Assembly: GCF_900119145.1 (NCBI RefSeq)
Contig: NZ_FPIY01000002.1
Span: 124,001-188,000 of the forward strand
DNA length: 64,000 nucleotides
Origin: Cellulophaga fucicola
GTDB lineage: Bacteria > Bacteroidota > Bacteroidia > Flavobacteriales > Flavobacteriaceae
Direction: 5' to 3'
The translations under genes were made by a program, and so were the position numbers. How positions within the stretch are numbered: the first letter of the stretch is position 1; each line of letters begins with the position of its first letter. Shown here in pieces: positions 51,242 through 53,750 of the stretch. A model generated the notes under the pieces. That model worked only from the letters and a program-made list of their open reading frames with translations, was not told the DNA's origin and did not search any database.

Positions 51242-51595
51242 TTAAAACTTTTTGTTTCTAACAACAAAAGCATCATTTAAAACTGCTTCTAAAACCATAT
51301 TATCTATCTCTTCTAAAGAAGTATAACGCAGTGATTTCATCTTCTTACGTCCATCTACAACCAACAATTCGGTAAACTTTGTTAAGTGTTGTCCGCTTTT
51401 AAAAACTAAATCTACATAGTTTTTACTACAATTTAAATGACAAAAAGGCTTCTCCTCTATATAAAAGTAAGGTAAACTATATTTAAATTTTAAATCTACA
51501 CTTGGCAACGTGCGCACAATAACAGCCTGCAAATGCATTAAAATATCTCTATAAGGCTCTTGCGCATTGTAAATATATTCTTCGGCTGGTTTCAT
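51242..51595 (-). CDS. DUF1801 (YdhG-like) protein
   Basis: This 117-residue protein has the DUF1801 fold pattern: PAEEYIYNAQEPYRDILMHLQAVI, then LKFKYSLPYFYIEEKPFCHL, YVDLVFKSGQHL, and RYTSLEEIDNMVLEAVL. These small cytoplasmic proteins resemble the Fe-S-independent YdhG family and are of uncertain role. It is convergent with the TlpA-like gene and divergent from the regulated operon beginning at 51677; its promoter region lies against the first copy of the palindrome at 51650-51668, so the same regulator could affect it. Confidence 0.85.
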   Translation of the reverse strand: MKPAEEYIYNAQEPYRDILMHLQAVIVRTLPSVDLKFKYSLPYFYIEEKPFCHLNCSKNYVDLVFKSGQHLTKFTELLVVDGRKKMKSLRYTSLEEIDNMVLEAVLNDAFVVRNKKF

Positions 51596-51649
51596 ATTTT
51601 AAATATATAAATTTTACAATGACTATTGCACAACACAATAATTTTACTT

Positions 51650-51673
51650 TACTTTGTTTTTCAAAGTACTTTA
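51650..51673 (+). promoter_or_regulatory. Palindromic operator-like element, copy 1 (TACTTTG-N5-CAAAGTA then CTTTA)
   Basis: Bases 51650-51668 are a perfect 7+7 inverted repeat with a 5-base spacer, and the next five bases (CTTTA) extend it so that AAAGTACTTT is also palindromic. The element ends 4 bases before the ATG of the membrane protein gene at 51677. The identical arrangement occurs at 52613-52636. It most likely binds the winged-helix regulator encoded at 52303. Confidence 0.75.
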
Positions 51674-51676
51674 TAT

Positions 51677-52300
51677 ATGGATTCTAAAAAATACTTAGAC
51701 GACATTTCTGAGATTAAAAATATGATGAGCAAGTCGTCTCGTTTTATGTCCTTAAGCGGACTGTCTGGAATATTAGCTGGTGTGTATGCATTAATTGGAG
51801 CCTATTTAGCACACAGCGTAATACATACAATTAAAACTGAGCAAAATGGGTTAAGTAGATTTTTTATGACATTTGGTGCATTAGACAGTTTACTAATAAT
51901 TGCATTAAGTGTTATGGTTCTTGCGTTAATTACAGGAACAGTATTAACCTATTTTAAAGCCAAGAAAAGTGGCGAAAAAATGTGGGATGTATCTAGCAAG
52001 CGTTTACTGCTAAACTTTTTATTACCATTAATAGTAGGCGGACTTTTCTGCTTAGCTCTAATACAGTATGAATACATAAAAATTGTTGCACCTGCCACAC
52101 TAATCTTTTACGGTCTTGCTTGTGTTAATGCCAGTAAATATACCTTAGGAGGCGTACGTTATTTAGGGATTACTATAATTACAATTGGTTTAATATCTAC
52201 ACAATTTGTTGGTTATGGTTTGTATTTCTGGGCATTAGGTTTTGGTGTTTGTCATATAATTTATGGTTCTTTAATGTACTTTAAACACGACCGCAACTAA
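51677..52300 (+). CDS. Six-helix membrane protein, first gene of the regulated operon
   Basis: From the ATG at 51677 the protein has 207 residues: a hydrophilic start (SKKYLDDISEIKNMMSKSSRFMSLSG) then about six hydrophobic helices, among them GILAGVYALIGAYL, LLIIALSVMVLALITG and LGITIITIGLISTQFVGYGLY. A start 17 codons earlier would fall upstream of the palindrome and is unlikely. The wHTH regulator gene begins 3 bases after its stop codon, so both genes come from one transcript. I do not know a function; membrane proteins paired with such regulators in Bacteroidota are uncharacterised. Confidence 0.8.
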   Translation: MDSKKYLDDISEIKNMMSKSSRFMSLSGLSGILAGVYALIGAYLAHSVIHTIKTEQNGLSRFFMTFGALDSLLIIALSVMVLALITGTVLTYFKAKKSGEKMWDVSSKRLLLNFLLPLIVGGLFCLALIQYEYIKIVAPATLIFYGLACVNASKYTLGGVRYLGITIITIGLISTQFVGYGLYFWALGFGVCHIIYGSLMYFKHDRN

Positions 52301-52302
52301 GT

Positions 52303-52593
52303 ATGAGTATTATAAACAATATTAACAAAGCATTTGATCACCGTATTAGACTAGGCATTATGTCTATTTTAATGGTGAATGATTATGCCGATTTTAATAT
52401 GCTGAAAGAATTACTAGGTGCAACAGATGGCAACATAGCTAGCCATACAAAAGCTTTAGAAAAAGTAGAATACATTAAGGTTGAAAAACAATTTATAGGT
52501 AGAAAACCCAATACAAGATATTCTGCAACGCAACTAGGTAAGCTAGAGTTTAAAAAGCATATAGATGCACTTGAAAAATTAATAGGAAGATAA
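52303..52593 (+). CDS. Winged-helix transcriptional regulator
   Basis: This 96-residue single-domain DNA-binding protein resembles the HTH_27/MarR-like winged helix: FDHRIRLGIMSILMVND, then DFNMLKELLGATDGNIASHTKAL as the recognition helix-turn-helix, and RKPNTRYSATQLGKLEFKKH as the wing and last helix. Small regulators of this type (no sensor domain) usually act as dimeric repressors. It lies between two copies of the TACTTTG palindrome, one before its own operon and one before the genes that follow. That is the layout expected for autoregulation plus one further target. It is linked by a 2-base gap to the membrane protein gene. Confidence 0.9.
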   Translation: MSIINNINKAFDHRIRLGIMSILMVNDYADFNMLKELLGATDGNIASHTKALEKVEYIKVEKQFIGRKPNTRYSATQLGKLEFKKHIDALEKLIGR

Positions 52594-52612
52594 AACTATT
52601 TTTTTATAATTC

Positions 52613-52636
52613 TACTTTGAAATACAAAGTACTTTA
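52613..52636 (+). promoter_or_regulatory. Palindromic operator-like element, copy 2 (TACTTTG-N5-CAAAGTA then CTTTA)
   Basis: Bases 52613-52631 repeat the 7+7 inverted repeat of copy 1 with a different spacer (AAATA instead of TTTTT) and again continue with CTTTA. Conservation of the arms but not the spacer is typical of a protein-binding site. It begins 20 bases after the regulator gene and ends 11 bases before the Coq4-like gene. Confidence 0.75.
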
Positions 52637-52646
52637 AATAATAAAT

Positions 52647-53102
52647 ATGAGAGCATTACTGTTAGAAAAACTATACGACTGGAGTAAAATTCCCTATCAA
52701 AAATTCTTAAAAAAGAACGATGCTTGGAACATAGAAGTATCTAAACTCTTGCGCTATCCTAAAGATTCTTTAGGCCAAGGATTAGGCTTGTTTATTACCA
52801 AGCACAATTTTGAGTTACAAGATAAATTAGAAAGTCATGATGTGTTCCACGTGTTAACAAATACGGGAATTACAGTGCCAGAAGAAGTAAGTATGCAGTT
52901 TTATTTATTAGGGAATGGTAAGCGCAGTCTTTATTTATTCTCGGTTGTATTCTTAGGCCTACTACTCTACCCCGATTATTTTACAACTTTTAAAAACACC
53001 TACAATAGAGGTAAAAAAGCATTGCAATTTCATCAACTAGATTTTTTAAAAATGCTGCATTTACCAATACAAAAAATTAAAACAACCTTTTTAATATCTT
53101 AA
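52647..53102 (+). CDS. Coq4-family protein
   Basis: This 151-residue protein has the exact Coq4 metal motif His-Asp-x-x-His-x11-Glu: His64, Asp65, His68 and Glu80, in SHDVFHVLTNTG followed by VPEE. The C-terminal third has a hydrophobic segment (LYLFSVVFLGLLLYPDYF) as in other Coq4 proteins, which are membrane-associated. Coq4 acts in ubiquinone synthesis, decarboxylating and hydroxylating a ring intermediate in organisms that have ubiquinone. Flavobacteria generally use menaquinone, so the role here must differ or be unknown. It lies behind the second operator copy and 3 bases before a DUF1361 gene. Confidence 0.85.
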   Translation: MRALLLEKLYDWSKIPYQKFLKKNDAWNIEVSKLLRYPKDSLGQGLGLFITKHNFELQDKLESHDVFHVLTNTGITVPEEVSMQFYLLGNGKRSLYLFSVVFLGLLLYPDYFTTFKNTYNRGKKALQFHQLDFLKMLHLPIQKIKTTFLIS

Positions 53103-53105
53103 AAA

Positions 53106-53750
53106 ATGAAACAGAAATTAATTTTAATTGCAAAATCTAACTTAAGCTTAATAACATCTATAAGCTTTGCTTTCTTAATTTTAGCCGTACGTATAAAAAT
53201 TACAGGGTCTTTATTCTTTAGTTTTCTTGTTTGGAATCTTTTCTTGGCCGGTTTGCCCTACTTGTTTTCTCAGATTTTAAAACAGTTACACGCCACTAAC
53301 GCCAATAAATTAATACAGTTTGGAGTCTTTGGTTTATGGTTGCTATTTTTACCAAACAGCCCATATATTATTACAGACCTCATACATTTACAAAATGAAA
53401 GCGCTACTATGGTATGGCTAGACTTACTTATTGTATTTGTGTACGCTATTAATGGTTTGTTATTTGGTTTGTTTTCTATGATAGATATTTACCAGATTCT
53501 AAAGAGTAAGTACGACGTTAAAAATGCCAACTTTTTTATGATATACTTATGTTTACTATGTGGTTATGGCGTATATCTAGGCAGGTTTTTACGCTTTAAT
53601 TCTTGGGATTTGTTTACAAAGCCACACATACTAGCCTACAATATTGTCCATAGTTTAACCAACTACAATGTTTGGGCAATGACATTTGCTTTTGGTGGCT
53701 TATTATGGATTTTATTCTGGACGTTACAGTCTAAGCTTTACAAACAATAA
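53106..53750 (+). CDS. DUF1361 membrane protein
   Basis: The 214-residue protein has about seven hydrophobic helices and the DUF1361 signature FLPNSPYIITDLIHL, followed by FGLFSMIDIYQ and GVYLGRFLRFNSWD. The conserved Asp/Asn/Arg residues face one side and suggest an enzymatic or transport site in the membrane, but no activity is known to me. It is the last gene of the Coq4-like unit (3-base gap) and is convergent with the dehydrogenase-like gene ending at 53766. No terminator hairpin is visible in the 15-base gap. Confidence 0.92.
   Translation: MKQKLILIAKSNLSLITSISFAFLILAVRIKITGSLFFSFLVWNLFLAGLPYLFSQILKQLHATNANKLIQFGVFGLWLLFLPNSPYIITDLIHLQNESATMVWLDLLIVFVYAINGLLFGLFSMIDIYQILKSKYDVKNANFFMIYLCLLCGYGVYLGRFLRFNSWDLFTKPHILAYNIVHSLTNYNVWAMTFAFGGLLWILFWTLQSKLYKQ

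Follow-up and report, generated by a model that had tools for sequence, protein, structure and literature searches.

We have analyzed a stretch of 64,000 nucleotides from Cellulophaga fucicola (contig NZ_FPIY01000002.1, positions 124,001 to 188,000; hereafter, the window), in which two palindromes flank the gene for a small winged-helix regulator of the HTH_34 family. Our subject is this pair of putative operators, together with the membrane-protein/regulator module in which they lie and the genes that the module may control. The sites and genes, all on the forward strand, are as follows:

51626–51628, +: TTG read directly in the sequence; judged from alignment columns, a candidate −33 box for site 1
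51650–51673, +: putative operator site 1, half-sites ACTTTG/CAAAGT with a 5-bp spacer and an abutting ACTTT; overlaps the predicted −7 box
51677–52300, +: membrane partner, 207 amino acids (aa), an N-terminal helix followed by six predicted long transmembrane (TM) helices
52303–52593, +: HTH_34 winged-helix regulator, 96 aa, proposed repressor of both sites
52599–52605, +: seven-T (T7) tract, ATTTTTTTA with its flanks (52598–52606); 91–100% T per column over 112 loci
52613–52636, +: putative operator site 2, of the same tripartite layout as site 1, before the downstream arm
52647–53102, +: Coq4-like protein, 151 aa, HDxxH-x11-E motif present; heads the downstream arm in this lineage
53106–53750, +: DUF1361 membrane protein, 214 aa (PF07099, 156 bits), second gene of the downstream arm

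Read directly from the window, site 1 is TACTTTG-TTTTT-CAAAGTA-CTTTA and site 2 is TACTTTG-AAATA-CAAAGTA-CTTTA; the initial annotation was correct on their positions, on the identity of the arms and the difference between the spacers, and on the layout of the four genes around them. The two inverted arms it described are real, but it overlooked a third half-site that abuts the second arm, so that the operator has three half-sites in total, arranged as ACTTTG-N5-CAAAGT-ACTTT. Sites 1 and 2 are the only exact matches to the motif in the window; with up to two mismatches there are three matches against 0.91 expected, a number attained by 8 of 100 shuffles. Throughout the 3.92-Mb genome the exact palindrome occurs twice, both copies flanking the regulator gene, and the reversed-pattern control occurs 0 times. 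Thus, the pair is neither a chance occurrence nor part of a repeat scattered across the genome. When the third half-site is included, every other match in the genome has at least two mismatches, and the total at up to three mismatches (20 + 17) is near that of the control (17 + 16).

The palindrome accompanies the regulator across genomes. In a sample of 100 genomes (its own and 99 relatives, with orthologs scored at 100 bits or more), 36 have the exact palindrome and 44 a strong regulator ortholog; both are present in 34, the ortholog only in 10, the palindrome only in 2 and neither in 54. The exact palindrome is therefore found in 34 of the 44 genomes with the ortholog versus 2 of the 56 without (Fisher p 2e-15, kinship ignored) and, within the genus (18 genomes), in 13/13 with the regulator versus 0/5 without, which bears out the expectation that the palindrome co-occurs with homologs of the regulator. 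The reversed pattern was found at one place each in 3 of the 100 genomes. By hand count, 53 of the 58 exact copies lie at the operon, the other five being L117–L121. The palindromes of L117 and L119 fall within long reading frames and those of L118 and L121 outside such frames, and all four are without the CTTT extension. L120 has the extension, and 43 nt separate it from the MpaB-like gene that it precedes, whose family occurs inside the operon in other loci.

Conservation was followed in 114 loci, that is, the 44 ortholog loci and 70 of 80 further loci, 10 having been dropped as duplicates through an exact 300-base match. If no more than one of the 12 core bases may differ, 114/114 loci have site 1 and 112/114 have site 2, so homologous operons do keep the palindrome upstream; the membrane-partner gene is likewise found 5′ of the regulator, on the same strand and within 3 kb, in all 114, with a small gene between the two in some loci. 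The CTTT following the second arm is conserved at 98–100% per letter at both sites, a figure slightly flattered because the column counts required CT right after that arm (a filter to which site 1 of L097 was lost, as was the first downstream site of L153, L156, L170 and L192). Site 2 is missing from L079 and L080 only, where DUF2809 comes next and the Coq4, CreD, DUF4153 and MpaB genes are all absent from the locus; since 15 further loci devoid of CreD or DUF4153 still have site 2, a tie between loss of the site and loss of its target genes is only suggestive.

The regulator matches HTH_34 (PF13601) with 102.2 bits (gathering cut-off 27), covering positions 1–80 of the 80 in the profile, and is a bare winged helix of 96 residues without a sensor domain, HTH_34 being its only Pfam match at E ≤0.1. 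Its closest named relative is a Cellulophaga protein with 97% identity, and the only solved chain found by sequence is PH1061 (PDB 1UB9; E 2.5e-9), an archaeal protein deposited as hypothetical. For the membrane partner, a Pfam scan gave no family above the cut-off. Its best-conserved part is formed by the N-terminal 45 residues (mean entropy 0.75 versus 1.52 bits elsewhere); the AlphaFold2 model (predicted local distance difference test score, pLDDT, 80.3) has an N-terminal helix, of low confidence, and six long helices, and 0 matches to the Protein Data Bank (PDB) were returned for it at E ≤0.001. The Coq4-like protein is a marginal match to Coq4 (PF05019; 23.7 bits, cut-off 22.9), aligned only over positions 119–216 of 221, and one of its relatives scores 22.6 bits, slightly under the cut-off. 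Bacteroidota mostly use menaquinone, and a role in lipid metabolism other than ubiquinone synthesis is likely for this protein.

In Flavobacterium psychrophilum the σA −7 box, TAnnTTTG, spans −12 to −5 (PMC9723704). The initial annotation likened the arms to the −7 element of Bacteroidota; TACTTTG alone is one base short of it, and with the preceding base counted, the −7-like box at site 1 is TTACTTTG (one mismatch). At site 2 the corresponding box is CTACTTTG (two mismatches), and in several relatives a first arm AACTTTG produces a perfect box, TAACTTTG. Across 113 loci the site-1 box follows T[T/A]ACTTTG, with T at k=−1 in 99% (k is the column number in the site alignments, k=11 being the last spacer base). 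With this box set on −12 to −5, the start falls on the final base of the spacer and position −33 on k=−22; transcription is therefore predicted to begin near 51661. Columns k=−24, −23 and −22 hold T (52%), T (71%) and G (58%) over the same loci, so that site 1 fits the −33/−7 spacing, and the operator would extend from the −7 box to about +12 (−12 to about +12). Site 2 is preceded, at a fixed spacing, by the T7 tract, which ends 5 nt upstream of the −7-like box and was not seen at site 1 in the aligned loci; the T7-tract pattern has 103 + 109 matches in the genome versus 59 + 64 for the reversed control, an excess that we do not count in favor of a general promoter role. L153 and L192 also have the tract before their second downstream site. 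On the opposite strand, a DUF1801 gene (51242–51595, −) starts 54 bp from site 1, and its promoter might likewise be contacted from the operator, which is symmetrical; a member of the cluster to which this gene belongs was found in 20 of 60 loci.

Distant HTH_34 paralogs, each encoded beside a different membrane protein, have the same layout with another half-site, GGTTTA-N5-TAAACT-AGTTT. A PF13601 profile search of 148 Bacteroidota genomes gave a match in 126, over the cut-off in 105, and a wider set of 88 loci was formed from 77 selected among these matches and L106–L116. The regulator reading frame is present in 87 of the 88 (the exception being L262), with a hydrophobic partner directly upstream in 68. 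Among 77 combinations of spacer and gap scanned, a 5-bp spacer with no gap (5/0) stands well ahead, 10 or more of 11 positions matching in 38 of these 68 loci and in 0.9 after shuffling; the geometries ranked next (3/2, 1/4 and 7/−2) are register shifts of 5/0, and the fifth, 2/−2, is found in 8 loci against 0.55. As the ACTTT(G/A) half-site is common to 34 of the 38, independent support for 5/0 comes from class B, 15 loci in which this geometry combines with a [GAT]GTTT(A/G) half-site. The third element is NCTTT in 41 of 45 loci of class A, the ACTTTG type, while in class B it is NGTTT in 8 of 15, ACTTT in 3 and other in 4; a second site lies downstream of the regulator in 38 of the 45 class A loci. 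Six of the seven comparisons made between partner proteins of different classes give a profile-level alignment (probability 73 to 99.9), whereas the pE–pF comparison failed (probability 1.8). In 11/15 class B loci TAnnTTTG begins 21 nt downstream of the point where the first half-site begins, and in one more 23 nt downstream of it, which places the operator directly upstream of the −7 box; in class A it lies on the −7 box and the start. Because the operators of the two classes are placed differently with respect to the −7 box, it is unlikely that the third half-site serves as a signal of the promoter or of the leader. In L253, L259 and L263, which have another partner subtype, a class A palindrome is followed by AAATC or ACACA as third element; these may represent a two-half-site variant.

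The genes found past the regulator vary. In the 114 loci, whose limited length makes gene counts lower bounds, DUF1361 is encoded downstream in 69, DUF2809 in 66 and CreD in 35, DUF4153 occurs in 62, and the first recognized gene past the regulator is Coq4-like in 51, CreD in 33, DUF4153 in 11, MpaB-like in 9 and another in 10. The Coq4-like second arm of the initial annotation is thus present here, but is just one version of that arm. CreD (35 loci) and DUF4153 (62 loci) occupy a similar slot and never occur together among the 114, as if one could stand in for the other; neither was found in the genome of the window. CreD occurs in 20 of the 100 genomes, in 16 of them at the module by position. 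In Psychroserpens loci, an MpaB gene lies inside the module with a site of its own (read in L153 and L192, placed by spacing in L156 and L170). The first downstream site of these four loci, before the MpaB-like gene, is without the third half-site, and the second, before DUF4153, is complete.

In the 148 Bacteroidota genomes, the exact 22-mer occurs in 49 copies distributed over 30 genomes, with none for the reversed 22-mer. All 30 have an HTH_34 match of at least 85 bits, against a background of 86/148, and such a match is found within 2.5 kb of 39 of the 49 copies. Of the ten distant copies, four stand 23–53 nt before the gene for C13, the small membrane protein belonging to the module, one 96 nt before a Coq4-like gene, one 36 nt before a gene for a protein with a CreD-like C-terminal part (55.6 bits) and one 394 nt before an MpaB-like gene recognized by eye; the others precede a C92 peptidase gene followed by a Coq4-like gene (by eye), a gene for a protein weakly like DoxX/MauE (below the cut-offs) and a gene for a 110-residue protein without a family. 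Since seven of the ten precede module families, the sites tend to follow target families that leave the operon.

The sites, their conservation and their association with both the regulator family and the target families are seen directly in the sequences compared. They lead us to consider it probable that the palindromes are operators of the HTH_34 regulator encoded between them, which would repress its own transcription and control the downstream envelope genes. The initial proposal that the regulator represses itself and the Coq4-like arm is supported by the comparison; physical binding, repression rather than activation, sensing by the membrane protein and the nature of the signal are what we infer from it. 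A dimer of the regulator would bind the inverted half-sites ACTTTG/CAAAGT, with an extra contact at the abutting ACTTT. At site 1, the first half-site would lie on the σA −7 box and the remainder over the start point; because the operator overlies both, the bound regulator should block RNA polymerase, and the membrane-protein/regulator transcript would be autorepressed. Site 2, plus further sites in other genomes, would bring the downstream envelope genes under the regulator, namely the Coq4-like and DUF1361 genes here and CreD, DUF4153, MpaB-like or DUF2809 genes elsewhere. The 6-TM partner is the best candidate for a sensor of an envelope or membrane-lipid signal, which it would relay to the regulator, setting the state of the repressor as proposed for HAAS/PadR pairs. 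The link of CreD to the envelope (PMC4689548) and the lipid-enzyme character ascribed to DUF2809 (PMC12419801) suggest an envelope or isoprenoid-lipid signal. A wider model, for which we see about as much to say as against it, is that of a phylum-wide envelope-signaling dyad, similar to HAAS/PadR but separate from it, in which a 6-TM protein with a conserved N-terminal helix would retain or let go of an HTH_34 repressor whose operator is tripartite. Paralogous dyads, which have the same geometry and a different half-site, would for that reason each run a small circuit of their own, and the ACTTTG pair would govern isoprenoid- and envelope-related membrane proteins (CreD, Coq4-like, MpaB-like, DUF2809 and DUF4153).

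It is conceivable, but unlikely, that the regulator binds these sites as an activator or a dual regulator. The promoter at site 2 may need help, since the −33 TTG is absent and the fixed T7 tract lies just 5′ of the −7-like box. However, the site 1 operator covers −12 to about +12, and those of the paralogs occupy the DNA immediately 5′ of the −7 box. Such positions, over the −7 box and the start or directly upstream of that box, are typical of steric repression. Binding by another global regulator, or a role as promoter element for an alternative sigma factor, would make the HTH_34 gene merely a target. The first arm does overlap the −7 box, and an alternative motif, TAnnTTGY, is known in F. 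psychrophilum (PMC9723704), with which site 1 agrees in many of the loci (k=7 is T or C in 91%). Such a scenario is improbable, as there are two sites per genome here and no scattered regulon, the site is absent along with the regulator inside the genus (0/5), a strong HTH_34 match is present in every one of the 30 genomes with the 22-mer, and the paralogs keep the geometry with another half-site at a different position relative to the −7 box.

We give very little credence to a third scenario, in which the palindrome is a leader RNA hairpin acting in translation control or attenuation, even though in 111 of 113 loci the membrane-protein gene has its ATG 6–9 nt past the end of the palindrome. 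A start at k=11 would leave the first arm untranscribed; the arms are near-invariant rather than compensating, and a second arm AAAAGT, found in 16 of the 68 wider loci, breaks one pair with the rest kept. A hairpin would, moreover, leave the third half-site unexplained.

Several observations weigh against the palindromes being operators of the HTH_34 regulator. The exact palindrome is missing from 10 of the 44 ortholog genomes, all of which have variants with one or two changes, and the 22-mer is found in only 30 of the 148 genomes of the phylum. The L120 palindrome is reversed, its CTTT side facing away from the MpaB-like gene, and two distant 22-mers (L311 and L314) precede genes outside the module families. 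Column counts over 112 loci show no TTG box before site 2. In six class B-type loci with a partner (L108, L111, L114, L236, L245 and L254), no operator was found in the scanned stretch. In L294–L306, most of which come from two other families, 12 of 13 HTH_34 genes lack a hydrophobic partner and a credible operator; operator matches there are weak and scattered, and the proteins mostly have a TDGNL motif. The HTH_34 domain alone does not, therefore, imply an operator, and these loci perhaps put the domain to another use. For the regulator, AlphaFold2 gave a poor model (mean pLDDT 62.8). Lastly, residue 42 of the regulator is Asp in 45/45 class A loci and 0/15 class B loci (setting aside L108, called class A by a weak match), and we dropped it as independent evidence in the form of a specificity code, as the tree shows one change only. 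A code pairing Asp with cytosine and Lys/Arg with guanine is chemically sensible, but Ala, Ser and Gln too are found at this position in class B, and the partnerless TDGNL HTH_34 proteins without an operator undercut it as well.

The initial annotation held that the module had not been described. Skillet-DUF2809/6TM/winged helix-turn-helix (wHTH) operons were, however, noted in silico from gene neighborhoods in the Lipocone survey (eLife 2025; PMC12419801). As in that system, a wHTH regulator (HTH_34) is coupled here with a 6TM protein (as seen in the AlphaFold2 model), and since DUF2809, which the survey links with envelope-lipid genes, lies downstream of the regulator in 66/114 related loci, the two systems are, judging from the text of that paper, probably the same, although the operon in the window is itself without a DUF2809 gene. 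The paper's section on DUF2809/6TM/wHTH mentions neither an operator nor a regulon, its main text uses neither CreD nor Coq4 as a word, and among the papers listed in searches of an open-access library we saw none that described the operator or regulon. HAAS/PadR two-gene systems have been proposed as an alternative to two-component systems for envelope stress (PMC11237479). The module resembles them in that a sensor-less wHTH regulator is encoded beside a membrane protein; the regulator is, however, HTH_34 and not PadR (Pfam scan, E ≤0.1), and no HAAS (DUF1700-like) domain was detected in the membrane partner at E ≤0.1 or in two relatives at E ≤0.05. The Listeria PadR-type repressors LltR and LstR regulate their own operons, which include transmembrane proteins, and are thought to respond to envelope-active compounds (PMC6624303). 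The small wHTH regulator studied here, also proposed to be autoregulated and also accompanied by membrane-protein genes, belongs to another protein family in another phylum; as for an autoregulated wHTH protein, an inverted-repeat operator lies over its own predicted promoter and is conserved with the regulator gene. CreD is an envelope-integrity protein of the CreBC/CreD system (PMC4689548); a CreD gene also lies downstream of the regulator in 35 of the 114 loci, but the regulator is of the one-component type and the genome of the window has no CreD that we could find.

A similar switch appears to exist in many families of Bacteroidota, more widely than the initial annotation claimed. The module would provide a regulator, an operator and a regulon for genes that are widespread and functionally obscure, tying CreD, the Coq4-like proteins (of presumed menaquinone users), DUF4153, DUF1361, DUF2809 and the MpaB-like proteins to a single envelope circuit. 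Between families of the phylum, the 22-bp operator is kept so well that targets can be proposed by pattern wherever this class of regulator occurs. The circuit may add to HAAS/PadR a second means by which a membrane protein is coupled with a sensor-less winged helix.

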